Source: a virus
IMG/VR virus record: IMGVR_UViG_3300030012_003380
Span: 588-29,332 of that record
Direction: 5' to 3' (one strand)
DNA: 28,745 bases
Shown here: positions 7,101 to 28,745 of the stretch, piece by piece
How the letters are laid out: the number at the start of each line of letters is the position of its first letter
Position numbering within the stretch: the stretch's first letter is position 1
Program-made: the position numbers and the translations under genes
Notes under the pieces: generated by a model
Told to the model about the DNA's origin: nothing
Seen by the model: only the letters and a program-made list of their open reading frames with translations
The model's database searches: none

Positions 7101-10100
7101 AGTAACAGGAATTGGCACGAATATATTCAAATTTAATCCAACTGGAATTGCAGAAACTAGTTTATACGATTCCACAGGAATATCAACTGTTTTTTATTCA
7201 ACAAAATCCACTAATGAAATAGGTGGGATACATTCAATAAAAATATTAAATAAAGGTTTTAATGTTACTGATTTACCTATAATTACATCTATAGACACCA
7301 TCAACGGTCAAAATTCTATTCTAAATGTAGAATCAGATAATATTGGAAGTATTAATAGTACTCAAGTTTTTAATCAAGGATTAGAGTTTTCTCCAGACCA
7401 TACATTGAAACCAAAAGCAGATAGTAATGTTATTTTAGAATTAAAAAATATATTTACACTTGAGAATGTAGGTATTGTTACTGGAGGATCCAATTATACA
7501 AGTCCACCAAAAGTAATTGCAATTGGAAAACCAAATATAGTCGCACAGACATCTCTAAATGGAACTTCAGTAAACAAAATTAAAATTTTAACTAATGATA
7601 GTGGATTATCAGAAGATCTTAGAATTGTCCCAGTATTAAATTCTAATGGTGTTGGTATTATAAGTGCATCAACAGATTCTAATAAAACAGTTTTACTGGG
7701 ATTAAGGGCACCGATTCCAGATGTTGGTAATCAAAGTGGATTTTTTAATAGTGGTGGATCTTTCCCATTTGAAATAGGTGATGAAATATTTGTCGAAAAT
7801 GTTAAAACTTTAGATGGAATTAATGGTTATGATTCAAGCACTTATGATTATGCTTATTTTACAGTCACTGCTGTTAATCAAACAGCTGGAGGAGAATCTA
7901 TTAGTTATTCTATAGTTGGATTAGGTTCAACTGGTGGGAAATACCAATCAGAAAATAATTTTGGTAGAGTAATTAAAAAATCAGATTTAGCTGAGTTTTC
8001 ACCACAATTTAGAAAATCTTCTTTTGCTGATAAGGAAGTAGTTCAAATTGTTAATAAAAATATTACAGGAACAGTTGCAGAAAATGGTTGGGATCCTATA
8101 TCACAAACATTAAAAGTATTTGATGTTACTGGAGATTTCTCAAAAGAAGATTCTATAATAGGTAAAACAACTAATAATAAAGCAACTGTAACCAATCAAT
8201 TTAAATTTGATTTCGATTTAAATGTTGATGCAACAGCAAATAATATTAATAGTTGGAAAGATGATATAGGAAAATTAAATTTAGATATTCAAAGATTGCA
8301 TGATAATGATTACTATCAAAGATTTTCATATTCAATTAAAGGTGGAGTCCCATTTAATACTTGGAAAGAAGCAGTTAATAGTTTAGATCATGTAGCTGGA
8401 TTTAAAAATTTCTGTAATTTAGGTATTACATCTGCCGCACAGCATACTTTAAATTCAGATGGTGAAATTGTATTTGAAGTTGACATTGATGCAGAAGCTT
8501 CTGTTCATGAAAAATTCTATTATGATATGGTAAGTGAGGATACTGATGATCCAGATTTATCAAAATTAGTTGTTTTCCAATCAAAAGTCATAACTGATTA
8601 CAATGAATCAAGAACCAATAAAGTTTTATTGATAGATGATATAAGTTCTCAATTCACAGGAATAGTAACTAGCACTGGTGGTGGTGTTATTGGAACTTCA
8701 ATTTTTAAAGTATTTACAGGAGGAGATCCATTATTCCACAAAGAATTCAATCCATCATCTGGAATTTCAACAGACACACATAAAATTACAATATCAAGAC
8801 ATAATTTTAATACTGGTGAAGAATTATTATATAAACCACAGACTGGTCAATCGTCTATTGGAATCGCTAATACATCAGATACTAACGCTGGTATTGCTGC
8901 AACAACATTATTACCATCAACTGTTTTTGCAATAAGAGACGATGCAGATAATATTAAGGTAGCAATTTCTGCTACTTTTGCATCTTCTGGAATTGCAGTT
9001 TCATTTACTGATATAACTGGCATTGGTACGCAACATATTTTAACTGTTCCATCTGAAAATGCTACTATTAGATCATTAATTAGTATTGATAATGTTATTC
9101 AAAGTCCTGTCGGCATAACAACAGTCATATCTGTTAGTTTATCAACTCAAGTTGGAATATCAACTGATATTGTATTTTTAAATGATACTTCAAAGATTGC
9201 TGGCAAATCCTTATTAAAAATTGAAGATGAAATATTAAAAGTAAATTTAGTAGGTGTTGGATCTACTAATGGTGGAGTAATACCAAATTCTTTAAATGTA
9301 ATTAGAGGACAAATGGGAACTGTTGCTGCAGCACACACAGTTGGTGCAGCAGTCACCGTATTAAAAGGTGATTATAGGATAAATGAGGGAAAAATATATT
9401 TTTCTGAAGCACCTTACGGGCCTACAGGTAATACTGGTATCACTACATTTTCTACATTTTCTGGAAGATCTTTCTATAGATTAGATTACACTAATAACAA
9501 AATTATTGATGATATATCTGATAGATTTGATGGATCAACAGATAAATTTAACCTAACAACTAATGGTGTTCAGTTATCAGGTATTAACACTAGTTTTGGT
9601 GCTATTTTAATTAACAACATTTTTCAAAATCCCCATTATGGTGATGTTGGTAGTGTTTCTGAGTCAGATTATGAAATGACTGGAACTGGAGAAAAAATTG
9701 ATTTTACTGGAACTTCTGGTAATAAAGATCTACCTAGAGGTGGAATAATTAATGAATTTGATGTTGGTGTTGGAACTGGATATCAAGTTCCTAGAAAAGC
9801 ATTATTTAGTGCTGTAGTATCAAATTCTGGAACTATTTCAACTGTAGGTATACTCACTGGAGGTTCTGGATATATAACACCACCTATAATTTCAATTGCA
9901 TCTAGTACTGGTTCTGGTGCTACAATTGAGGCTTCAATTACTGCTGGAATAGTTACATCTTTAAATTTATCAAATGCTGGATCTGGGTATAGTAATACAG
10001 GGATAAGCACTGGATTGAATTTTGTAACTGCTCCATTACCAAGTCCTTATAAAAATATACCACTATCAGGTGGAAGTGGATCTGGTGCAAAAATCGATGT

Positions 10101-11568
10101 TGTAGTAGGAACTGGTGGCAGTGTAATCTCATTTGATATGTCAGATCGTGGTATAGGTTACGAAATTGGAGATGTATTAGAATTAACTACTATTCCTCAT
10201 CAGGTAGGTATAGCAACAACATCATTTAAGATAACTGTTAAAAATAGATTCCAAGATAAGTTTGCTGGTTGGACTTTTGGTCAGTTAATACAACTAGATG
10301 ATTTTAGCGAACAGTTTAATGGGTTTAGAAAGTCATTCTTGATAACTCGCACTATTGTTAATAAAGAGTACTATAGTATAGTCGCTCAAGAAGGTTCTGG
10401 AGTCATTCTGCAGAATAATCTACTCATATTCATAAATGATATTTTACAAAAACCAGGTAGAGATTATAATTTTAATAGTGGAACGAGAATAACATTTAAT
10501 GAGGCACCTAGATCAGGTAGTAAATTTAACATGTATTTTTATACTGGATCTAATGAGGATTATGTTGAGGTTGACGTTGATGAAACAATAAAACCAGGTG
10601 ATGAATTAAAATTACAGTATTATGCTACACCAAATACTAAAGTATTAGAGCAAGACAATAGAATAGTTTATGAACTTATTGCAGCAGATACTGTAGAAAC
10701 AACAACTTATGGTGGAGTTGGTATTTCAACTGATTCTAGTTTCATTAGACCAACAATGTGGAGAAAACAAACAAATGATTTAATTATTGATGGTGTCAAA
10801 ATATCAAAAGAGAGAAATTATCTAGAACCACAAATACCACCAACAACTGGTATTATTAAATCTATAACTCCTAGTGATACTAAAATATATGTAAAAAATT
10901 CTTGGTTCTTTGAATCAGTGGATGATTTATCTCAAACTAAAAATGATATAACCATTGTTGGTTTAGGAACTACTTCAGTTGTAGAAAAAATTGAAAAAGT
11001 ATCATATGCAGGAGATTATGGAATTGTGGTTGGCATCGGAACTAGTGCAATTGGTATTAATACCACTGGGCCTGCAATATTCTTTGAAATTAAACCACAA
11101 CCTGATGAAAATTATGGAATATATCACCCTAACGGTGCACCAGCTGGTGGGGAAAATAATAAAATATCTAAATCTGGTATAACAACTGGTGATTATTTTG
11201 TAATAGAAAATACATTTATGGGAGATGGTGTTACTGGAATAAAAACCACTACATCAGGCCCTGAAACTGTTAGTATTGGAAATACTTTCTTAGATAATGT
11301 ATATTATGCATCACATCATGTGTCAGTTGGTTCATCTATACTAAGAGTATTTGCAAATGTTAATTCAATTGCAGGTATAAAGACGGCAGGATTTGGAACA
11401 GCTGGGATAGATCGCTTTAAATTTGGTGATTATAGTTGGGGATCTATCAATGTTACTAGAACTAGTAATTCTAAAGCATTCACATTCCATAATCAAAATG
11501 GTTTACTAGGAATCGAAACTTCAACTCAAGTAATAAGATCTCTACCTTTAAAATCACTTTATACATAA
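1114..11568 (+). CDS. Giant modular baseplate protein in the gp7 position, 3484 aa, with YHYH-type domain
   Basis: Predicted virion baseplate component of roughly 380 kDa, lying exactly where T4 encodes wedge initiator gp7 (about 1030 aa). Residues 1–100 and 170–260 look like the N-terminal region of marine-phage gp7-type proteins: a PDFIQADNPLFKEFLTQYYE helix, then ILSRARDFYSSKGTDTSLQI and VLYGEQVEI. Residues ~1213–1356 resemble a YHYH domain (GWAYDGNPIYGP; LDEHNGKF; FPNGTYAYF). The rest is short beta modules: SGxGY glycine repeats (~718–792, 1063–1180, 1420, 2113–2140, 2899–3025); HxFxxGE/D modules (~588, 811, 951, 1480, 1652, 1819, 2555); IDxE…RG…H modules (~104–170, 335–397, 1539–1605, 2688–2754); and a late NDILQKPGRDY module (~3102–3145). 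No signal peptide or membrane segment is visible. The ATG at 1114 follows an AAGATAAGA stretch. It could be a fusion of gp7 with peripheral fibre or receptor-binding modules; that is inference. Confidence 0.8.
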   Translation: MSDKKVKISNILGSQIPDFIQADNPLFKEFLTQYYEFEEHEYGTTDLADHISSLKKISTVADISLVEKQTINAPNSNAPESPIILSSLIYAYDDTINVNETTGFPEKYGLLKIDNEIITYTGKTETSFTGCIRGFSGISAIKTEGNPEFLTFSDTDASAHAENSLVVNLSFLFVTEFYKKFRKNFLPGLEGKSFSYGLNVENILSRARDFYSSKGTDTSLQILFQVLYGEQVEIIKPFDQTIRPSESEWDVTDDIVVEVLSGDPLNLVGVKIYQNSFTNPTASGSVSNVTTKLLGDLRYYKISFSKGTIENKFNISTKTKVVDTNSSTEVLSVDSTIGFGETGNFYYPDADNIYTLAEYTSKSSNQFFGCTGVSRLLSESDPIIDTNFVYGYEDNDLTKICIMRIVGSISGAADNASNTKYFDINDSIRVKHLGEKYDISDKKFNTWFYNNLSYTEVHQHQAGSKTFETLVEHFLKIGDIVDVIFKDTKGLIVENAIVSDVYSSTRFLISGGVELNSIVFGDYIIKKKLNYASSNFGITSLLSNIQNSFSDVDKNTYVAFSGYPSFDTQTTNRSKSVVSSGISTNASTITVNNHNFINGERVYMSISANSGISGSVSGYFYVNVVDSNTIRLALNLSNLYNNIFEGIKYNGIGSGTHNIIPASLFDGEKLVNQNNFKRIFKNPQIVKNNNSISGPIGVSLNGIEYHSPISEDAVFYGQIDELEVLNSGKDFNVVNPPTILITDDTGSGCEAHVNFSGSLSEIIVNEGGFDYSDTPSVKIIGGNGNGAVCEAKMRSFTHSKTFTEFDINLTNNTLDGDHRFLNGEEVTYIATGSPIGIDTNTSVASVGFSTDLLSSGSNYFVSKIDANTFRLATTKDKAISRTNLIELIDNGTRTHTFRSNKVRKIIDRIVVKNVGSLYSNHKILVDSQLYPPSNKENLFKTFVGINTFNNYIYAKNHNFSNGDLIEYLCNDTVISGLSVSKLYKITVINDDKFKLSEAGTAENISNLDYDRKIYVNLGSVGVGTHTFKYQDIEVKIDGKVSVGTTDSIPNYYKASAKAIVKGGLKNIFVKDGGIKYGVTNVVNYLRTPNIKLLTGRDAQITPIISEGKISDIDIVNSGSEYTTPPELEVVGVGGTFGTTGQFAKLESVVSNGKIIGVNIIAKGTGYDANDTIIKVIPSGSEEIIGSKVHEWKVNLVERYRYALTLDNSELLQVRSTSATNKNKICSLYPPKKYRRLLRDNITDNFVESTTNHSKILGWAYDGNPIYGPVSTNNSGITTFMQSSYSVKVISDNNLRPSGYQNGYFIQDYVYDESGDLDEHNGKFVKNSDFPNGTYAYFSTIDNLTKEPSFPYITFLHRNATDEFNYNINKVQSDKILNTGEYKRNVTHLGLDDVFRSYPLLQDPLKSEAVVKVDGVDSSTVKKISVIESGTGYKVNDKINFNDPTINASVEEVIGKAIISIGTTNTVVDNLIFSILNDKVTGVSTVPHGLSSGDIVEISGISSTNYKNIEGVKTIGVSTVVSSLSESMPNSGITTFVTFFDSTINRKFNIDDVIKIDSEQFLVIDHDDVNNKHRLRRAHNSTTATSHNAGALITRLETEFTYQISKKIENRNIQLPKKQYFQAERSVGIGTTVTNVVVGFVGISSINKSIPPGAIYLPNHPFQNGDEVSLVSIGSTIKASSSDTLSPDFDLADFNKLYCIRINNLYVGLATEKTGFIENRVFFKEILTEEGVTKEDDNSIEIITDNLSGSLRRVNGTVTVATATTTGQQHDLSVNDNFRLHVTSNKTQTFDLRYNENIRKLVVNPITFADTSIGIGTTSSKISLDDHDFETGDLIVYNSATPANPLVDNRVYYVVKDSKDTIRLAENSFDILTFPYNYITLETNGGSEHKISKINPKLSIYKNNTIELLTSDPSLNDFDIEFFIDNNFKSRYDSDLITKSDDKITISVTDQLRKEFYYKIEGKNSNIIKTLSFAVDERVPNHSQINVIDSKFNKEFRVTGIGTNIFKFNPTGIAETSLYDSTGISTVFYSTKSTNEIGGIHSIKILNKGFNVTDLPIITSIDTINGQNSILNVESDNIGSINSTQVFNQGLEFSPDHTLKPKADSNVILELKNIFTLENVGIVTGGSNYTSPPKVIAIGKPNIVAQTSLNGTSVNKIKILTNDSGLSEDLRIVPVLNSNGVGIISASTDSNKTVLLGLRAPIPDVGNQSGFFNSGGSFPFEIGDEIFVENVKTLDGINGYDSSTYDYAYFTVTAVNQTAGGESISYSIVGLGSTGGKYQSENNFGRVIKKSDLAEFSPQFRKSSFADKEVVQIVNKNITGTVAENGWDPISQTLKVFDVTGDFSKEDSIIGKTTNNKATVTNQFKFDFDLNVDATANNINSWKDDIGKLNLDIQRLHDNDYYQRFSYSIKGGVPFNTWKEAVNSLDHVAGFKNFCNLGITSAAQHTLNSDGEIVFEVDIDAEASVHEKFYYDMVSEDTDDPDLSKLVVFQSKVITDYNESRTNKVLLIDDISSQFTGIVTSTGGGVIGTSIFKVFTGGDPLFHKEFNPSSGISTDTHKITISRHNFNTGEELLYKPQTGQSSIGIANTSDTNAGIAATTLLPSTVFAIRDDADNIKVAISATFASSGIAVSFTDITGIGTQHILTVPSENATIRSLISIDNVIQSPVGITTVISVSLSTQVGISTDIVFLNDTSKIAGKSLLKIEDEILKVNLVGVGSTNGGVIPNSLNVIRGQMGTVAAAHTVGAAVTVLKGDYRINEGKIYFSEAPYGPTGNTGITTFSTFSGRSFYRLDYTNNKIIDDISDRFDGSTDKFNLTTNGVQLSGINTSFGAILINNIFQNPHYGDVGSVSESDYEMTGTGEKIDFTGTSGNKDLPRGGIINEFDVGVGTGYQVPRKALFSAVVSNSGTISTVGILTGGSGYITPPIISIASSTGSGATIEASITAGIVTSLNLSNAGSGYSNTGISTGLNFVTAPLPSPYKNIPLSGGSGSGAKIDVVVGTGGSVISFDMSDRGIGYEIGDVLELTTIPHQVGIATTSFKITVKNRFQDKFAGWTFGQLIQLDDFSEQFNGFRKSFLITRTIVNKEYYSIVAQEGSGVILQNNLLIFINDILQKPGRDYNFNSGTRITFNEAPRSGSKFNMYFYTGSNEDYVEVDVDETIKPGDELKLQYYATPNTKVLEQDNRIVYELIAADTVETTTYGGVGISTDSSFIRPTMWRKQTNDLIIDGVKISKERNYLEPQIPPTTGIIKSITPSDTKIYVKNSWFFESVDDLSQTKNDITIVGLGTTSVVEKIEKVSYAGDYGIVVGIGTSAIGINTTGPAIFFEIKPQPDENYGIYHPNGAPAGGENNKISKSGITTGDYFVIENTFMGDGVTGIKTTTSGPETVSIGNTFLDNVYYASHHVSVGSSILRVFANVNSIAGIKTAGFGTAGIDRFKFGDYSWGSINVTRTSNSKAFTFHNQNGLLGIETSTQVIRSLPLKSLYT
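1423..1620 (+). repeat. IDxE…RG…H module, copy in giant protein N-terminus
   Basis: Protein-level repeat: GLLKIDNEIITYTG, then CIRGFSG, then ASAHAENSLVVNL. It interrupts the gp7-like N-terminal region. Related copies lie in the same gene (~2116–2300, 5728–5910, 9175–9375), in the DUF4815 gene (19472–19665) and in gp15 (26091–26240). Confidence 0.6.
4750..5181 (+). other. YHYH-type domain inside the giant protein (residues ~1213–1356)
   Basis: The translated segment carries HSKILGWAYDGNPIYGP (residues 1252–1268), GYQNGYF, LDEHNGKF (1316–1323) and FPNGTYAYFSTID. This is the layout of the YHYH family (hGxAxDGxPIYGP … LDExNG … tYxYxxT … PY). The literal Y-H-Y-H tetrads are degenerate here (NHSK near the first, TYAYF at the second). 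The family occurs in bacterial extracellular proteins and marine phage structural proteins, and its function is unknown to me. Confidence 0.75.
9175..9375 (+). repeat. IDxE…RG…H module, copy near the giant protein C-terminus
   Basis: Translated segment SLLKIEDEILKV … LNVIRGQMGTVAAAHTVGA followed by AVTVLKG. It has the same order of elements as the copies at 1423–1620 and 19472–19665: an acidic IxxE strand, an RG turn, then an H-x(2–3)-G/N-x-V strand. Confidence 0.65.
9810..10200 (+). repeat. SGxGY glycine-rich repeats in the giant protein
   Basis: Three consecutive protein repeats: VGILTGGSGYITPPIISI, LNLSNAGSGYSNTG and ISFDMSDRGIGYEIGD. They alternate with GSGA-type turns (STGSGATIEA, GSGSGAKIDV). 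Each unit reads as a beta strand, an sGsGY turn and a second strand, probably forming a repetitive beta structure. Confidence 0.7.
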
Positions 11569-11572
11569 GAGG

Positions 11573-11580
11573 TATAAATA
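11573..11580 (+). promoter_or_regulatory. T4-type late promoter TATAAATA upstream of gp8
   Basis: The octamer TATAAATA matches the T4 late-promoter −10 element read by the phage sigma factor gp55. It is placed 22 bases before the gp8 start, in one of only a few real intergenic gaps. It would let gp8 and the DUF4815 gene be transcribed independently of the 10.5-kb gene upstream. Confidence 0.75.
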
Positions 11581-11601
11581 ATCAAAAAAATGTAAGTATC
11601 A

Positions 11602-13194
11602 ATGCCCGCAATAATCACTGACCAATATCGTATATTAAACGCAGAAACTTTTGTAGATAGTTTTGTAGGTATTGGTACAACTGGAAATAATAATTATTAC
11701 AGTTTCTTAGGACATCCAAATCCAAAAAATACTGATGTAAAAAATTATGGAAAATCTGATTGGGGAAATCCTGTTCCAAATCCAATAGATGCGTTCGATC
11801 AGGAAAATTATTATTATGATAGTATGCTTTTCTTAAAAAAAGTAACAGAAAATGACGTTAGAAGAGTGATTCCTAGATTAGATTGGCAGACTGGAACAAT
11901 ATATGAGATGTACAGAAATAACTATAACTCTGATAATCGTACACCTCAAACTAAATCAACTACATTATATGGATCACAATATTTTGTATTAAATTCTGAA
12001 TTTAACGTATATTTGTGTATTAATAATGGTGCCAATCCAGATAATCCAGATGGACAGAAATCAACATCTGAACCAACTCATACAAATACAGAACCTGATA
12101 TAGCTGGAAATGGGTCAGATGGTTATCTATGGAAATACTTATATACAATTTCTCCATCAGATATAGTTAAGTTTGTAACCACTGCGTATATCCCATTACC
12201 AAAAAAATGGGGAGATACAGCGACTGCAACCGTAAAAGATGCTGCAGTGGATGGAAAAATTGAAACTGTGATTATCAAAAACAGTGGATCTGGATATACT
12301 ATTGATGAGGGTGACGGTGTTGAACTTTCAACAGGAACTATCAGTGGAATACCCATAACGGGAAATGGTACAGGTGGATCAGTATCAGTTTTTATTAGTG
12401 GTAAACAAGTAAAAGGTATAACAGGAGTTGTTGGTGGATCTGGATATACGTACGCTTCAGTTAGATTTGAAGCTGGTTCGTTTGGTGGAAAGACATTAGC
12501 AGTAGGAACTGGAGCAGAATTTGAAGTTATAATACCTCCTAAAGGAGGACATGGTGCAGACATATATCGTGAGTTGGGTGGTTTTAGAGTCATGCTATAC
12601 TCCAAATATGAAAATAATGTTGATGATATCCCAGATTACGTTCTCGGTAATGATTTTTCTCGTATAGGTTTAATTAAAAATCCTTTAGAATTTAGTGGAA
12701 CTAACCTTCTAAATAATACGACTGCGACTAATTTGAGTGCATTAAAATTAAAACCAGATTCATCATCTGGATTAACTACTTCAAATGTTACATATACTCC
12801 AAATAGTTTAATTACACAAAAAGTAGGAGTCAATTCTACTGCAGTGGGTTATGTTGCATCTTGGAATCCAGATACTGGAGTTTTAAAATATTATCAACCA
12901 GTTGGTTTTTCTACTTTGTCAACTTATTCTTATAAAAAACTTGATTTTGTTGGATTGAATACTGCTATTACAGGAGGATCACCTGAAGATTTAGTTGTTG
13001 ATATTGATTTTAATGATAAAAGATCGGTTCCAGTTGGTGGAAAAGATGTTGATCTTGGTCAGACATTTAATCTTGGAAAATCAAATCCAGAAGTTAAAAA
13101 ATATTCTGGTGAAATCATATATGTTGATAACCGAGCACCAGTAACAAGAACATCTTCACAAAAAGAAGAAGTAAAAATAGTCATAGAGTTCTAA
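11602..13194 (+). CDS. gp8: Baseplate wedge protein gp8
   Basis: In T4, gp8 is a dimeric wedge component that binds gp6, gp7 and gp10. Here 530 residues are predicted, against about 334 in T4. The N-terminal ~200 residues look gp8-like: MPAIITDQYRILNAETFVDS, an RRVIPRLDWQTGTIYEMYRN segment, YFVLNSEFNVYLCINNG, then EPDIAGNGSDGYLWKYLYTI with a SPSDIVKF continuation. The extra length is mostly an insertion at residues ~205–320 with two SGxGY units (KNSGSGYTIDEG, VVGGSGYTYASV) and a GYVASWNPDTGVLKY module at ~410–425. The conserved fold seems to resume between and after these (GGFRVMLYSKYENN). The ATG at 11602 has no clear Shine-Dalgarno; an ATG at 11590 is followed at once by TAA and cannot be the start. 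It lies downstream of a TATAAATA late promoter, and the next gene begins 4 bases after its stop. Confidence 0.88.
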   Translation: MPAIITDQYRILNAETFVDSFVGIGTTGNNNYYSFLGHPNPKNTDVKNYGKSDWGNPVPNPIDAFDQENYYYDSMLFLKKVTENDVRRVIPRLDWQTGTIYEMYRNNYNSDNRTPQTKSTTLYGSQYFVLNSEFNVYLCINNGANPDNPDGQKSTSEPTHTNTEPDIAGNGSDGYLWKYLYTISPSDIVKFVTTAYIPLPKKWGDTATATVKDAAVDGKIETVIIKNSGSGYTIDEGDGVELSTGTISGIPITGNGTGGSVSVFISGKQVKGITGVVGGSGYTYASVRFEAGSFGGKTLAVGTGAEFEVIIPPKGGHGADIYRELGGFRVMLYSKYENNVDDIPDYVLGNDFSRIGLIKNPLEFSGTNLLNNTTATNLSALKLKPDSSSGLTTSNVTYTPNSLITQKVGVNSTAVGYVASWNPDTGVLKYYQPVGFSTLSTYSYKKLDFVGLNTAITGGSPEDLVVDIDFNDKRSVPVGGKDVDLGQTFNLGKSNPEVKKYSGEIIYVDNRAPVTRTSSQKEEVKIVIEF

Positions 13195-22836: not shown

Positions 22837-23013
22837 ATGAACAGTGAAGTTGATGTGAACATTTTGATTAGTCATTATCATAAAAAATTATCAACATTGG
22901 TTAATCAAAATTTATTATTGGAGGCAAAAATGGAATCTATGACAAAAGATTACATGGATTTGAAAGAACAATTTGAAGAATTGCAAAAATCCAAAAGAGG
23001 AATTAAGAAATGA
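22837..23013 (+). CDS. Small coiled-coil protein, 58 aa
   Basis: Short gene filling the gap between the fibre gene and gp13. Translation begins MNSEVDVNILISHYHKKLST and continues with LVNQNLLLEAKMESMTKDYM, then DLKEQFEELQKSKRGIKK. It is almost entirely charged helix with heptad-like leucine spacing (LSTLVNQNLLLEAKM), so a coiled coil is probable. Support comes from three points: a GGAGGA site upstream, a stop that overlaps the gp13 ATG (ATGA), and the otherwise gap-free packing of the region. No known family is recognised. A role in fibre or neck assembly is only suggested by position. Confidence 0.72.
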   Translation: MNSEVDVNILISHYHKKLSTLVNQNLLLEAKMESMTKDYMDLKEQFEELQKSKRGIKK

Positions 23014-23825
23014 GTAAACCATCCACTAGACAGGAACTAATCGATTATTGTCTGCGAAGACTTGGATTTCCTGTGTTGGAAATTAATGTGGATGAAGATC
23101 AAATTGAGGATTTAATTGATGATGCAATTCAATATTTTCAAAACCGTCATTTTGATGGTTCTGAAAGAATGTTACTAAAGCATAAAATTACAAAAGAAAA
23201 CAGAGAGACATTAAGAACTGGAATTACCACCACAACAGCTGGATCAACTGTTGGTATAACAACGACAACTTTCGAAGAAAATCAAAACTTCATACAATTA
23301 CCTGATCATGTATTAGGTGTAGAAAGGGTCTTAAAAATGGATAATAACACTATATCCAGTGGATTATTTAATATCAAATATCAAATATTTTTAAATGATC
23401 TTTATTATTATGGTGCACTTGATCTTTTGAATTATACGATGACTAAGACATACTTGGAGGATTTAAGTCGTATTATTACACCAGATACTCAAATAAGATT
23501 CAATAGAAAACGAGGAAGATTATATCTTGATATAGATTTTGAACAGATGAATGATGATACATTTATAGTAATCGATGGTTATCGTCTTTTAGATCCTAAT
23601 GATTCAACTAAAGTTTACAACGATTTTTGGTTAAAAAAATATGCAACTTCATTAATTAAAAAACAATGGGGAATGAACTTAATTAAGTTTCAAGGTGTAA
23701 TGTTACCTGGTGGAGTTCAGTTAAATGGAAGACAAATATATGAAGATGCAATTAGAGAACTAGAAGAATTAGAAAATACACTTAAGACAGAATACGAATT
23801 ACCACCTCTTGACTTTATAGGATGA
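23010..23825 (+). CDS. gp13: Neck protein gp13 (head completion)
   Basis: In T4, gp13 and gp14 form the neck that closes the filled head and docks the tail. Here 271 residues are predicted (T4 about 309). The N-terminus is strongly gp13-like: SKPSTRQELIDYCLRRLGFP, VLEINVDEDQIEDLIDDAIQ, then YFQNRHFDGSE. It continues with a conserved middle (YLEDLSRIITPDTQIRFNRK) and a C-terminus LKTEYELPPLDFIG. The ATG overlaps the stop of the 58-aa gene (ATGA), and AGAGGA sits 8 bases upstream. gp14 begins 4 bases after the stop, so the neck pair should be made together. Confidence 0.93.
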   Translation: MSKPSTRQELIDYCLRRLGFPVLEINVDEDQIEDLIDDAIQYFQNRHFDGSERMLLKHKITKENRETLRTGITTTTAGSTVGITTTTFEENQNFIQLPDHVLGVERVLKMDNNTISSGLFNIKYQIFLNDLYYYGALDLLNYTMTKTYLEDLSRIITPDTQIRFNRKRGRLYLDIDFEQMNDDTFIVIDGYRLLDPNDSTKVYNDFWLKKYATSLIKKQWGMNLIKFQGVMLPGGVQLNGRQIYEDAIRELEELENTLKTEYELPPLDFIG

Positions 23826-23829
23826 TATT

Positions 23830-25275
23830 ATGCCACTTTCTCCATATTTTTTACAAGGATCACAAGGTGAACAGAGATTAGTACAAGATCTAATTAATGA
23901 GCAGTTAAAAATTTATGGGCAAGATGTAGTTTATCTTCCTCGTAAAATCATAAACAAAAAAACAATTATGAAAGAGGTTGTGGCCTCTACATTTGATGAT
24001 GCTTATCGTATGGAAGCATATCTTTTAAACTATCAAGGATTTGAGGGTAGTGGGGATATTTTGCAAAAATTTGGAGTACAAACTACAGATGCAGTAACAT
24101 TTGTTATATCAAAAGAAAGATATGAAGATTTTATCAGTCCTTTTTTAACTGGAGATAGTGAAATAGAATTAGCAATAAGACCTGAAGAAGGAGATTTAAT
24201 TTATTTTCCTCTTGATAATACAATGTTTGAAATCAAATATGTAGAGGGAAAAAAACCTTTTTACCAATTAAATGATCTCTATGTTTATACTTTAAGTTGT
24301 GAGGTGATGGATTATGCACTTGATGAAGATATTGATACAGGAATCCAAGAAGTGGATGAAGCGGCAGTTGAGTTTGGATTCACCACCAGATTGACTATGG
24401 TAAGTATTGCTGCATCAACAGCAACAGCATCTGTTCAGTTATCAAAAAATGCTGGAAATACCATTGTTGGTAAAGGAGTTGCATTTATAGATTTAATTAA
24501 TGATGGAACTGGATATACGTTACCACCTTTAATTGGAATATCATCTGCACCAAGTGATGGCATCAATGCAACTGCTGTTGCAATTATGACAAGTAGGTCA
24601 GGACAAGTTGGTCAGTCAATAGATCGTATTGAATTAACAAATCCTGGTTTTGCATATACGACTCCACCAACAGTTACAATTAGAAGTCAAAATGCATTTG
24701 GAACTGGTGGTATTGCAACTGCAATAATAGCAGAAGGAACATTATCAACACCAACTATAAACAATGCTGGTGCAAGTTATGGTGTTGTTCCAAATGTAAC
24801 CGTAAATGCTGTTGGTTTAGATACTAATATTGGAATTGGGTCAACTGCAAAAGCAATAGCAATAGTTAATACTCTTGGTAAAATCGCTTCAATCAGATAC
24901 TCTTTTGCTGGTATCGGGTATACTTTAACTCCTACTATTACAATTGATCCACCAGCAAGAGCTGGATTAGCAACTGGTAATTATCAATTTAAAGAACTTG
25001 TTAGGGGAGTTTCAACAGGAACAACAGCAATCGTTGCTGATTGGGATGCGGATGATAGAATACTTAAAGTTACTAATGTTGGTGGTGTTGGATTTGCACC
25101 TGGTGAATCAGTGGTGGGTATTGGAACTACACTCTTAGGATCTGATTCTGAATACATTGTAAGAAGTGTTTCTGATCAGGATGAGTTTGATAATTATAAC
25201 GAAAATATACTTGTAGAGTCTGAAGCAGACTCAATTATTGATTTTTCTGAAGACAATCCGTTTGGTGATTTCTAA
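23830..25275 (+). CDS. gp14: Neck protein gp14 with glycine-repeat C-terminal extension
   Basis: Partner of gp13 in the neck. Residues 1–~200 carry the gp14 domain: MPLSPYFLQGSQGEQRLVQD, LPRKIINKKTIMKEVVAST, RMEAYLLNYQGFEGSGDILQ, and a VLSCEV-like strand (YTLSCEVMDYALDEDID). The full 481 residues greatly exceed T4 gp14 (about 256). The excess is residues ~215–378, with four SGxGY-type units (NDGTGYTLPP, NPGFAYTTPP, NNAGASYGVVP, FAGIGYTLTP). A module follows around ~390–425 (GTTAIVADWDADDRILKVTN … GFAPGESVVGIG). The last ~30 residues (DEFDNYNENILVESEADSII) are acidic. The extension resembles segments inside gp8 and the giant gp7-position protein, so the neck may be decorated in this phage. Confidence 0.9.
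   Translation: MPLSPYFLQGSQGEQRLVQDLINEQLKIYGQDVVYLPRKIINKKTIMKEVVASTFDDAYRMEAYLLNYQGFEGSGDILQKFGVQTTDAVTFVISKERYEDFISPFLTGDSEIELAIRPEEGDLIYFPLDNTMFEIKYVEGKKPFYQLNDLYVYTLSCEVMDYALDEDIDTGIQEVDEAAVEFGFTTRLTMVSIAASTATASVQLSKNAGNTIVGKGVAFIDLINDGTGYTLPPLIGISSAPSDGINATAVAIMTSRSGQVGQSIDRIELTNPGFAYTTPPTVTIRSQNAFGTGGIATAIIAEGTLSTPTINNAGASYGVVPNVTVNAVGLDTNIGIGSTAKAIAIVNTLGKIASIRYSFAGIGYTLTPTITIDPPARAGLATGNYQFKELVRGVSTGTTAIVADWDADDRILKVTNVGGVGFAPGESVVGIGTTLLGSDSEYIVRSVSDQDEFDNYNENILVESEADSIIDFSEDNPFGDF
24472..24965 (+). repeat. Four SGxGY-type protein repeats in gp14
   Basis: Units centred near 24505, 24646, 24765 and 24908 encode GTGYTLPP, GFAYTTPP, GASYGVVP and GIGYTLTP. They are about 40–50 codons apart and separated by Ala/Ile-rich strands (NATAVAIM, GIATAIIA, STAKAIAI). 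The repetition is clear in protein but loose in DNA, so these are old duplications. Confidence 0.75.
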
Positions 25276-25302
25276 ATAGTTTGGATGAGTCCTGTTTAAG
25301 TT

Positions 25303-26355
25303 ATGTTAGGAACCTATTATTATCATGAAATTATCAGAAGGACTATTATATCCTTTGGTACTCTTTTTAATGAAATAGATATAAAACACCAAACGTCTGC
25401 AGGTGGAGCATTTTCAACTGTAAGAGTTCCAATTGCTTATGGCCCAACAGAAAAGTTTTTAGCAAGATTAGAGCAGAAACCAGATTTAAGAAAGAGAGTT
25501 GCAATAACTCTACCTCGTCTAGCATTTGAAATGGACGGTATATCATATGATCCTGCAAGAAAAGTTTCAACAATGCAAACTTTTAAAGCATTTACTAAAG
25601 ATGGATCCAAAAGTGCACGAAAAGTTTTTATGCCAGTTCCATATAATTTAAGTTTTAAGTTATATGCAATGACACAATACAATGAAGATTCACTACAAAT
25701 AATAGAACAGATACTGCCATACTTTCAACCATCATTTAATTTGACTGTAGATTTAGTTAAAGCGATTGGTGAAACAAGAGATATACCAATGATTTTAGAT
25801 AGTGTAACTTTTGATGATAATTATGAGAGTGGATTCGATCAGAAAAGAGTTATAACTCACACATTAGGATTTACAGCAAAAACATATCTGTTTGGCCCTG
25901 TATCCGATTCTGGAACTGGACTAATTAAGAAAGTTCAAGTTGATTATCATGCAAGCACAAATACTAAAACCGCACAGAGATTTAAGAGATATGTTGCTAC
26001 ACCTCGAGCTCTTAAAGATTATAATGATGATGGAGTTACAAGACTTGCAGAGGATATAACAAAAACTCAAAGAAAATTCTTGGTTCAAAATACTGCAAGT
26101 TTAGTTGTGGATACTTATATTGCTATCGGTAATGAACTGATGTTTATTAAAGAAATAGATGGAAATAACATCACTGTTAATCGTGGTGAAGATGGAACAA
26201 CTATAGATACTCATATAAACGGTGACGTAATTGACGCAGTAAATGCTGCTGATGATGCACTTGTTGAAGTTGGTGATGACTTTGGATTTAGTGAACAGAG
26301 ATTTGATTTACCAGACTTTAGATCTTACAGTCCAACGAAAGGAGTTGATGTATGA
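25303..26355 (+). CDS. gp15: Tail sheath stabiliser / tail completion protein gp15
   Basis: In T4, gp15 forms the hexameric ring that ends the tail and accepts the head neck. Strong matches are seen at the N-terminus (MLGTYYYHEIIRRTIISFGT, LFNEIDIKHQ), then VRVPIAYGPTEKFLARL, ITLPRLAFEMDGISYDPARK, and the hallmark EDSLQIIEQILPYFQPSFN. The predicted 350 residues exceed T4 gp15 (about 272). The surplus is residues ~263–320, which hold an IDxE…RG…H module (FIKEIDGNNITVNRGEDG, then TTIDTHINGDVIDAVN). A 27-base gap precedes it with no clear Shine-Dalgarno. Its stop overlaps gp16 (ATGA). Confidence 0.93.
   Translation: MLGTYYYHEIIRRTIISFGTLFNEIDIKHQTSAGGAFSTVRVPIAYGPTEKFLARLEQKPDLRKRVAITLPRLAFEMDGISYDPARKVSTMQTFKAFTKDGSKSARKVFMPVPYNLSFKLYAMTQYNEDSLQIIEQILPYFQPSFNLTVDLVKAIGETRDIPMILDSVTFDDNYESGFDQKRVITHTLGFTAKTYLFGPVSDSGTGLIKKVQVDYHASTNTKTAQRFKRYVATPRALKDYNDDGVTRLAEDITKTQRKFLVQNTASLVVDTYIAIGNELMFIKEIDGNNITVNRGEDGTTIDTHINGDVIDAVNAADDALVEVGDDFGFSEQRFDLPDFRSYSPTKGVDV
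26091..26240 (+). repeat. IDxE…RG…H module in the gp15 C-terminal extension
   Basis: Translated TYIAIGNELMFIKEIDGNNI, then NRGEDGTTIDTHINGDVID. It has the same order of elements as the modules in the giant protein and the DUF4815 protein, though it is more diverged. Confidence 0.55.
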
Positions 26356-26771
26356 GTAAATTTGAAGAGATAGATGAATTTTTGGATATAGAACCGATTG
26401 ATGTTCCAAAAAAGAATCAAATTAAAAAGATAGAGAAAAAAGATGATCCCACTCTTGACTATGAGTATTCAAGAGGAAATTTATATTCTTTAATTGAAAA
26501 AGGACAAGAGGCAATAAATGGCATACTTGAGTTAGCACAAGATGGTCAGCAACCAAGAGCATATGAAGTTGCAGGACAATTAATTAAAAGTGTAGGAGAT
26601 ACAACTGATAAGTTAATTGATCTTCAAACCAAAATGAAAGAATTGAAAAAGGAAGATGATGGTTCACCAAAAACAGTTAATAATGCGTTATTTGTTGGAT
26701 CAACTTCAGAACTTTCAAAATTATTAAAGAAAGGAGTTCTAAATAATAAGGTGGAAAAGGAAGAAGAATGA
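26352..26771 (+). CDS. gp16: Small terminase subunit gp16
   Basis: Recognises or regulates concatemer DNA for packaging and stimulates the gp17 motor. It is 139 residues (T4 about 164). The acidic N-terminus (SKFEEIDEFLDIEPIDVPKK) leads into a conserved segment, DPTLDYEYSRGNLYSLIEKG, then QEAINGILELAQDGQQPRAY and a helical core (SVGDTTDKLIDLQTKMKELK) typical of the oligomerising coiled-coil region of T4-like gp16. The C-terminus is basic/acidic (LSKLLKKGVLNNKVEKEEE). AAAGGAG lies 7 bases before the ATG, which overlaps the gp15 stop; its own stop overlaps the next ATG (ATGA). Confidence 0.9.
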   Translation: MSKFEEIDEFLDIEPIDVPKKNQIKKIEKKDDPTLDYEYSRGNLYSLIEKGQEAINGILELAQDGQQPRAYEVAGQLIKSVGDTTDKLIDLQTKMKELKKEDDGSPKTVNNALFVGSTSELSKLLKKGVLNNKVEKEEE

Positions 26772-27481
26772 AAACATTCAAAGAATTTATACAAGAAAGC
26801 AGTCTTTCAAGAATCAAAAGTAAAGCAGATAAGGGTGGTATGGCTATCCTTTCTGGAAGTCGTGGTGATAAATCTGCAAAAGAAAATCGTGCAAGAGCAA
26901 AACAATTAGATAAAGATATTCGTGGAAAGTTTGGAAAAGGTGCAACAAAAGTAACTGGAAAATATCTTGAAAAAGATGAAAAAACTGGAGAAGAAAAGAA
27001 AGTAAAAGAGAGAAGTCACGTTGTAACTTCTGGAAAGATGGGTAAAAGAAAATTCAAGAAAGCAGTTAAGGCATTAGGTAAAAAATACGATCAAGATTCA
27101 GTCATTACACAAACAAAAGGTGGTGGAGGAGCTACACTTAAAAGAACTCGTAAAGGTGGATTACCAAAAAGAAATATAAAACTTGGAAAGATGAAACCTC
27201 AAGGTAAAAATCCAGAAGCAGAAACTCAAGTTAAAGGTAAAACATTTACTTATGAGTCATATCTTCGTATTCAAGAGAGAGGTAAAACTTATACAATAGC
27301 ACTTAACTGGAGAGGAAAATTAATTACAACTCAAATGTTTATACCATCATTTAAGAGACCTTCAAAAGCAGAGATGACAGCAGAAGTGCAAAAAGTATAT
27401 CCAACATCTGTTGTAATGTATTTCAGTCCATCAGTGGTAGATCCAACAAAACCGATGTTATACGCTGGAAAAGAAACGTAA
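26768..27481 (+). CDS. Probable head-internal protein with T4-type capsid-targeting leader, 237 aa
   Basis: The first ten residues, MKTFKEFIQE, nearly equal the T4 capsid-targeting sequence MKTYQEFIAE. That leader brings internal proteins into the prohead and is cut after the Glu by protease gp21. The residue after the cut is Ser. Residues ~22–115 have a pattern that may belong to the DUF3293 group (AILSGSRGDKSAKENRARAK, QLDKDIRGKFGKGATKVTGK, ERSHVVTSGKMGKRKF, KKYDQDSVITQ); this is tentative. A basic Gly/Lys linker (~116–155) follows, then a separate C-terminal domain (~156–237) with TYTIALNWRGKLITTQMFIP and VYPTSVVMYFSPSVVDPTKP. The whole protein is very Lys/Arg-rich, consistent with DNA contact in the head. 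It lies between gp16 and gp17, joined to gp16 by ATGA and preceded by AAAAGGAAGA. Its biochemical function is unknown. Confidence 0.75.
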   Translation: MKTFKEFIQESSLSRIKSKADKGGMAILSGSRGDKSAKENRARAKQLDKDIRGKFGKGATKVTGKYLEKDEKTGEEKKVKERSHVVTSGKMGKRKFKKAVKALGKKYDQDSVITQTKGGGGATLKRTRKGGLPKRNIKLGKMKPQGKNPEAETQVKGKTFTYESYLRIQERGKTYTIALNWRGKLITTQMFIPSFKRPSKAEMTAEVQKVYPTSVVMYFSPSVVDPTKPMLYAGKET

Positions 27482-27487
27482 ATTGTC

Positions 27488-28745
27488 ATGAGTGAAATTT
27501 ATCTTGGTAATCCTAATCTAAAAAAAGCAAATACACCGATTGAATTCACTGCAAAGCAGATTGAAGAATTTATGAAGTGTAAAAATGATCCTGTTTATTT
27601 CTCACAAAAATATGTGAAGATTGTGAGTCTTGATGAAGGATTAGTTCCGTTCAAACCATATAAATTTCAAGAAAAATTAATTAAGAGATTTCATAAAAAC
27701 CGTTTTAATATTTGTAAGATGCCTCGACAAACAGGTAAATCTACAACTGTGGTATCTTATCTACTTCACTATGCAGTTTTTAATGATAGTGTAAATATTG
27801 GTATACTAGCAAACAAAGCTGCAACTGCAAGAGAATTATTAGGAAGATTACAAACTGCCTACGAAAATCTTCCAAAATGGATGCAACAAGGTGTGTTGGT
27901 ATGGAACCGTGGATCATTGGAGTTGGAAAATGGATCTAAAATACTTGCAGCATCTACCTCCGCATCTGCAGTTAGAGGTATGTCTTTCAACATTCTTTTT
28001 CTGGACGAGTTTGCCTTTGTTCCTAATCACATCGCTGACTCGTTCTTTGCCTCTGTATATCCTACTATTACTTCTGGTAAAAAAACCAAAGTCATCATAG
28101 TTTCTACCCCACACGGTATGAATCATTTTTACCGATTATGGCACGATGCAGAAAGAGGAAAGAATGAATATACACCGACTGATGTTCACTGGTCTGAAGT
28201 ACCAGGTCGAAATGCAAAGTGGAAAAAACAAACGATTGCTAATACATCAGAACAACAATTTAAGATTGAGTTTGAATGTGAGTTCTTGGGATCTATTGAT
28301 ACTCTGATTGCTCCAAGTAAACTTAAGGCATTAGTATATGAGAACCCAATCAAACAGAATGCAGGTCTAGACATTTATATCCCTTCAGAAAAAAATCACG
28401 ATTACCTAATGACAGTTGATGTTGCAAGAGGTGTTGGAGAAGATTACTCTGCATTTGTATTAACTGATATCACTGAGTTTCCACATAAGGTTGTAGCAAA
28501 ATATCGAAATAATGAAATCAAACCAATGTTATTTCCAAATATCATATATGAAGTGGCAATGAATTATAATCAAGCCTTTATTCTTTGTGAAGTAAATGAT
28601 ATCGGTGATCAGATCGCTTCAATACTTAATTTTGATATGGAATACGAGAACCTTTTAATGTGCTCAATGAGAGGTCGTGCAGGTCAAATTGTAGGTCAGG
28701 GATTTAGTGGAAAGAAAACTCAACTTGGTGTAAAGATGTCCAAAA
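27488..28745 (+). CDS. gp17: Large terminase subunit gp17 (3' truncated by window edge)
   Basis: ATPase/nuclease motor that packages DNA into the prohead. 419 codons are present; the frame stays open to the window end (T4 gp17 is 610 aa). The ATP-binding region has an adenine-type motif FKPYKFQEKLI (~55–65), Walker A MPRQTGKSTT (78–87), Walker B ILFLDEFAFV with Asp173 and catalytic Glu174, and a coupling motif VSTPHG (205–210). The RNase H-like nuclease begins with TVDVARGVGEDYSAF (Asp311 as first metal ligand; Asp319 nearby) and CEVNDIGDQI (Glu368), matching T4 Asp401 and Glu458. The third acidic ligand lies beyond the window. The start at 27488 is 6 bases after the upstream stop. Confidence 0.95.
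   Translation, partial: MSEIYLGNPNLKKANTPIEFTAKQIEEFMKCKNDPVYFSQKYVKIVSLDEGLVPFKPYKFQEKLIKRFHKNRFNICKMPRQTGKSTTVVSYLLHYAVFNDSVNIGILANKAATARELLGRLQTAYENLPKWMQQGVLVWNRGSLELENGSKILAASTSASAVRGMSFNILFLDEFAFVPNHIADSFFASVYPTITSGKKTKVIIVSTPHGMNHFYRLWHDAERGKNEYTPTDVHWSEVPGRNAKWKKQTIANTSEQQFKIEFECEFLGSIDTLIAPSKLKALVYENPIKQNAGLDIYIPSEKNHDYLMTVDVARGVGEDYSAFVLTDITEFPHKVVAKYRNNEIKPMLFPNIIYEVAMNYNQAFILCEVNDIGDQIASILNFDMEYENLLMCSMRGRAGQIVGQGFSGKKTQLGVKMSK

Follow-up and report, generated by a model that had tools for sequence, protein, structure and literature searches.

The window analysed here, a stretch of 28,745 nucleotides, covers nearly all of a 29,332-bp IMG/VR record (GC 31.6%), and its phage is known from this metagenomic fragment alone. 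Genes around the locus were arranged in the order gp13-gp14-gp15-gp16-X-gp17, a late neck and packaging cluster of a T4-like cyanophage (Kyanoviridae). The large terminase matched best with its counterparts in Synechococcus phage Bellamy and Prochlorococcus phage P-TIM68, and the hosts are likely picocyanobacterial. ORF X was found exactly where the initial annotation had placed it, at 26768-27481 on the plus strand. It encodes 237 amino acids from an ATG start, opens with MKTFKEFIQESSLSRIKSK (N-terminus MKTFKEFIQE-SSLSRIKSK), and its ATG overlaps the stop codon of gp16 by 4 nt (ATGA). The lysine-rich character attributed to the protein was borne out by its composition (43 Lys, pI 10.25, net charge about +34). 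The features of the region are as follows.

23010-26355, plus strand: gp13, gp14 and gp15, neck and tail-completion genes forming the late structural context
26352-26771, plus strand: gp16, small terminase (phrog_445, E=9e-52), with a 4-nt overlap with the ORF start
26758-26763, plus strand: Shine-Dalgarno-like AGGAAG, read directly, inside the 3' end of gp16 and just upstream of the ORF
26768-26797, plus strand: putative capsid-targeting leader MKTFKEFIQE, residues 1-10, with a predicted gp21 cut after Glu10
26798-26845, plus strand: predicted mature start SSLSRIKSKADKGGMA, residues 11-26, a junction conserved in the homologue alignment
26846-27250, plus strand: SAM lyase domain, residues 27-161 (PF23780, E=1.4e-17), whose model matches T3 SAM lyase and Svi3-3
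26957-26965, plus strand: catalytic motif G64-K-Y66, equivalent to T3 G55/Y57 and Svi3-3 G56/Y58
27008-27016, plus strand: catalytic E81 and S83, equivalent to T3 E68 and Svi3-3 E69/S71, E81 being invariant
27092-27097, plus strand: substrate-binding Q109-D110, equivalent to T3 Q94-D95 and Svi3-3 Q104-E105, both invariant
27254-27481, plus strand: C-terminal domain, residues 163-237, plus stop, common to gp16-gp17-gap proteins of other cyanophages
27488-28745, plus strand: gp17, large terminase, 87.6% identical to Bellamy TerL, ending with the record

A search of the same genome for the prohead protease gp21, suggested in the initial annotation, found none on the 29.3-kb record that contains the window; this record stops within gp17. 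The gene (gp21, PF03420) was present on the 52-kb contig of a relative (L021, 84% identical), where the order gp13-14-15-16-X-17-18-19-20-gp21-gp22 was syntenic with the window.

SAM lyase domain

Residues 27-161 matched the Pfam family S-AdoMet_lyase (PF23780) with 64.3 bits against a cut-off of 28. The DUF3293-like domain proposed initially fell below its threshold (PF11697, 14.7 bits against a cut-off of 25, E=0.047) and was replaced by this assignment. An AlphaFold2 model built from an alignment of 44 relatives (identity down to 27%) reached a pLDDT of 71.6 and a pTM of 0.65; a full-protein model from a shallow alignment (pLDDT 47) was kept out of the fold claims. When the model was compared with known structures, as had been proposed with nucleotide-modifying or nuclease folds in mind, phage SAM lyases proved nearest, making up all of the first seven Foldseek matches in the PDB. 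The structural aligner placed T3 SAM lyase (8BB1) as the nearest solved fold (Z=14.3, rmsd 3.3, 132 residues), followed by Svi3-3 (Z 8.1), with the best unrelated fold at Z 6.1. The model displayed the PII/GlnB-like alpha-beta sandwich of the T3 enzyme. Sequence searches of the PDB with the window protein or a shallow profile gave chance matches only, and NCBIfam and PADLOC returned nothing for the window protein. The deeper profile from the 44 relatives ranked T3 SAM lyase first (E=0.033), a result weak alone and convincing together with the fold match. The SAM lyase fold is assigned to the body of the protein with very high confidence. Among predicted structures, the same fold occurred fused to other regions in BFVD entries A0A0C5AMW7 (cyanophage P-TIM40, 769 aa) and M4SKN3 (538 aa).

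A SAM-AMP lyase was also among the fold matches, and SAM-AMP lyases with the same PII-like fold are known from phages (PMC12255297), so that an injected enzyme could conceivably act as an anti-CRISPR, cleaving SAM-AMP, the second messenger of type III CRISPR, and not free SAM. The model was far nearer to T3 SAM lyase (Z 14.3) than to the SAM-AMP lyase (Z 5.2), which makes this reading very improbable.

In Svi3-3, SAM is bound by Gly56, Tyr58, Glu69, Ser71 and Gln104 (PMC7877911), whose counterparts in the window protein are G64, Y66, E81, S83 and Q109; Svi3-3 Glu105 is replaced by an aspartate (D110). In the profile alignment, E81 corresponded to T3 Glu68 and Q109-D110 to T3 Gln94-Asp95 (numbers counted along the alignment), and the T3 E68Q variant lost complementation (PMC7877911). 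G64, E81, Q109 and D110 were invariant across the 44 sequences, and Y66 was aromatic among the rows listed, with an occasional Trp in relatives. The lyase domain carried a charge of +25 to +33 in the cyanophage branch (+27 in the window) and of about +1 to +12 in those distant relatives that were examined; so basic a domain might be expected in a protein stored among packed DNA. Together with the basic nature of the T4 internal proteins, this charge would also fit an internal head protein with a structural job, such as DNA condensation or pressure, in which the lyase fold no longer has catalytic function. Loss of the catalytic residues would then be expected, and their invariance in the 44 sequences argues against such a protein, which we regard as highly implausible.

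The window protein shares with T3 SAM lyase (gene 0.3; PDB 7OCK, 8BB1) the fold and the equivalents of Gly, Tyr, Glu68 and Gln94-Asp95. Unlike the T3 enzyme, it carries the leader, is very basic and has an additional C-terminal domain, and its gene lies in a late cluster, whereas T3 expresses SAM lyase first after infection. Svi3-3 (6ZM9, 6ZNB) belongs to the same fold class and has the Gly56/Tyr58/Glu69/Gln104 equivalents; it came from a fragmented phage DNA library, with its native ends undefined, and had been assayed by rescue of an ilvA knockout; the accessible description mentions no leader.

N-terminal leader and its predicted cut site

The resemblance to the T4 capsid-targeting sequence (CTS) claimed in the initial annotation held in the T4 sequences compared. 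Internal proteins IPII and IPIII begin with MKTYQEFIAE|A and IPI with MKTFKEFTST; window residues 1-7 were identical to IPI, and residues 7-8 and 10 matched IPII/III, with Glu before the cut. In T4 IPIII mutants, targeting depended mainly on residues 4 and 7 and processing on residues 8 and 10 (PMC9026906). The window leader carries F4, F7, I8 and E10, so that all four functional positions fit, and MKTFKEFIQE has the expected form of an N-terminal CTS of 10-20 residues with key residues 4/7 and 8/10.

Relatives were gathered from phage records and from contigs of viral origin. All 153 unique homologues had I, L, V, M or F at P3 and, at P1, a Glu followed by SSLSR, or TSLNR and similar (pattern [ILVMF]xE|[ST]S); twelve different residues occurred at P2. 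In Prochlorococcus phage P-TIM68, the leader ends DIQE|SSLSR. Common leader lengths were 10, 13, 16-20 and 61-79 residues; a few longer values in the count may come from uncertain start codons. A clade of relatives (L029-L042, L122-L133) bore a basic leader of 61-69 aa (MKSFADFKKS...RRMLQRREYAAKVSAFIPDELKDHYEIDE) instead of the 10-aa one, still ending hydrophobic-x-E|SSL. S12 and R15 were invariant down to 27% identity, and in divergent members from Microcystis, Campylobacter, Alishewanella and Prevotella phages the N-terminal stretch ended hydrophobic-x-Glu before (S/K)SL.R. In the cyanophages with these homologues, the major capsid proteins carry a similar site, L/M-x-E|APT, apparently where the gp23 cut would be expected.

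Since the ESSLSR junction is kept across the whole family, the needs of the enzyme, and not of the protease, may account for some of its conservation. This is one point for supposing that the lyase acts only inside the infected cell, its N-terminus being part of the enzyme (e.g., an oligomerisation helix) and not a head signal. Another is that T3 SAMase is expressed early and acts without being packaged in this way (PMC8406200). Against this, P2 is free to vary while P3 and P1 are fixed, the gene lies in the late packaging cluster and not in an early region, and Svi3-3 retained its activity in a construct from which 19 N-terminal residues had been removed (PMC7877911). The leader on unrelated virion proteins, described below, also weighs against a purely intracellular role, which we consider unlikely.

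CsCl-purified virions of cyanophage S-CREM2 had been analysed by mass spectrometry, and the SAM lyase homologue ORF6 ('SAM hydrolase') was detected with 19 unique peptides and 26.3% coverage (PMC10665884). The domain of ORF6 is homologous to that of the window protein and its leader ends LEE|SSLSR, with Glu20 before the predicted cut; it differs in its length (414 aa), its C-terminal extension and its position outside the terminase gap. The authors proposed that ORF6 enters the cell and may protect DNA from restriction, and cautioned that such virion proteins could be co-purified contaminants (PMC10665884), a point that would also favour an intracellular enzyme. They regarded its virion status as unverified, and their available text describes no targeting leader for it.

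The leader pattern M..[FYLI]..F[LIMVFN].[ED] was run on all 219 annotated S-CREM2 proteins. It fitted 5 of 52 virion proteins versus 0 of 167 others (Fisher p=6e-4), having been tightened after the list was seen; a looser pattern gave 3/52 versus 0/167 (p=0.013). Only 0.05 of the 219 N-termini were expected to fit by chance, and the five seen were all virion-detected, so that, with the fixed P1 and P3 of the homologues, the leader is more than a chance resemblance. Four of the five were unrelated to SAM lyase: besides ORF6, the leader occurred on an APH-like kinase (ORF14), a cytidylyltransferase/NMNAT (ORF154), ORF13 and ORF136, the last located in the gp16-gp17 gap. Their positions in the S-CREM2 genome (OR473000; L087/L089) are the following.

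10310-10546: ORF13, leader MKDLHSFLTE
10579-12846: ORF14, leader MKRFDAFLTE
107301-108014: ORF136, leader MQTFSMFFSE
124608-125468: ORF154, leader MKNFSSFLTE

The presence of a T4-type leader on unrelated virion proteins suggests a general cyanophage cargo tag, and this modularity is the strongest argument for a head signal. ORF136, of the same length as the window protein (237 aa) and in the same gap, was considered as its twin and rejected, being an unrelated lysine-rich protein with the leader alone in common. In the independent genome of S-SCSM1, the expectation that the pattern would mark most cargo failed: two ORFs fitted, a virion-detected NMNAT and a 106-aa gp16-gp17-gap protein undetected in virions. 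With one of two detected, S-SCSM1 supports the leader rule, not strongly.

Related stretches were observed elsewhere. S-CREM2 ORF12 (7704-10313), annotated as a Cas9-like virion protein, contained LRFASFMAE|A, which resembles the leader, about 17 residues from its start; perhaps the true start lies downstream of the annotated one, or the leader is an internal one. Short leader-bearing ORFs occurred at L086:5844-6122 (MKEFDKFIEE|AAAKRC...) and in L076 near 609 (MKHFRKFMEE...).

C-terminal domain and the terminase gap

Residues 163-237 formed a separate domain, present in gp16-gp17-gap proteins of other cyanophages: S-CREM2 ORF137, S-SCSM1 SSCSM1_29, P-TIM68 AIR93437 and Bellamy gp123. The first two were virion-detected, and Bellamy gp123 directly precedes gp17. 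The 106-aa S-SCSM1 gap protein (SSCSM1_30, L093:44215-44535) consisted of the leader MKTFKQFMSE|S and the C-terminal domain alone.

When SAM lyase and C-terminal domain were fused, gp17 came next in 43 of 43 unique loci with room and gp16 preceded in 45 of 50 unique loci, while gp17 followed the stand-alone SAM lyase (about 162 aa) in 0 of 106 unique loci, these genes being located elsewhere. Most simply, the fusion would have arisen when a SAM lyase entered the terminase gap and came to lie between a leader and a C-terminal domain that were both already there.

The stand-alone lyase occasionally followed a D12-class adenine methylase, either directly or with one small ORF in between (L080, L156, L157, L158, L160, L164, L165; L083, L084, L085), placing a SAM user beside a SAM destroyer. 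A usual pairing with a phage Dam methylase was considered and dropped; such a gene lay immediately upstream in only 7 of 92 stand-alone loci with room, so that the pairing is not a rule.

Proposed delivery of the enzyme and its possible purpose

We propose with good confidence that the product of ORF X is a SAM lyase targeted to the capsid and ejected from it, combining a T3-type activity with a T4-style delivery. The protein would comprise three parts: a 10-residue T4-type CTS, a T3-type SAM lyase and a small C-terminal domain from a family of the head and packaging region. It would be synthesized late, from a gene overlapping gp16, and the leader would draw it into the prohead core, where gp21 would cut after Glu10. 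The very basic mature enzyme (about +33) would then be packed with the DNA, enter the cell with it at infection, and split SAM to 5'-methylthioadenosine and homoserine lactone before early genes are expressed. Processes depending on SAM in the host, i.e., type I restriction, BREX, DNA/RNA methylation and SAM-dependent regulation, should be blunted as a result. Cleavage, ejection, activity and biological target are inferred here.

Packaging of the enzyme in the head, already suggested by the initial annotation, is very likely, in view of the CTS logic, the gp21 gene in a relative, the late cluster and the homologue in virions. Early delivery of the active enzyme is reasonably probable. A precedent for an ejected anti-restriction protein exists in T4, whose IPI* is ejected along with the DNA and acts against a restriction enzyme of the host (PMC3012670). 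The body of IPI has an unrelated fold and inhibits the nuclease directly, whereas that of the window protein would be an enzyme against a small metabolite.

The early takeover or anti-defence role initially suggested fits a SAM lyase well, but a host defence is no more than a candidate target. T3 SAM lyase is reported to inhibit BREX via SAM depletion (PMC11842806). T3 is also reported to escape restriction without its SAMase, and the need for SAMase against restriction is disputed (PMC8406200). Restriction systems are absent from many Prochlorococcus genomes (PMC8262939), so that anti-restriction is only one possible purpose; that it, or anti-BREX activity, is the main benefit seems somewhat doubtful, and a reprogramming of methylation, polyamine metabolism or SAM-controlled regulation is a live alternative.

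Each half of the combination is known, and one SAM lyase homologue in virions was previously reported by proteomics. No description of a targeting leader on cyanophage cargo was found in the open literature searched, an absence that does not prove novelty. The finding joins the T4 head-targeting leader and the SAM-destroying enzyme of T3, two textbook mechanisms previously separate, in marine phages; public viral contigs contain related sequences by the hundreds.

It also yields a sequence rule for predicting injected cyanophage proteins, and a testable reason for the presence of SAM lyase, NMNAT-like enzymes and kinases in virion proteomes whose authors could not exclude contamination. A wider cargo system of T4-like cyanophages, in which one short leader loads SAM lyase, NMNAT and APH-like kinase for ejection and SAM lyase is a widespread marine cargo, could as well be right as wrong. 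If it is true, packaging would part two incompatible needs, SAM being destroyed on entry into the next host and kept for the phage methylases late in infection. Should SAM be destroyed at entry, the host could lose some of its methylation, restriction, BREX activity and SAM-controlled regulation before the phage begins transcription, and the enzyme may disarm or reprogram the cell before the phage genes are read.
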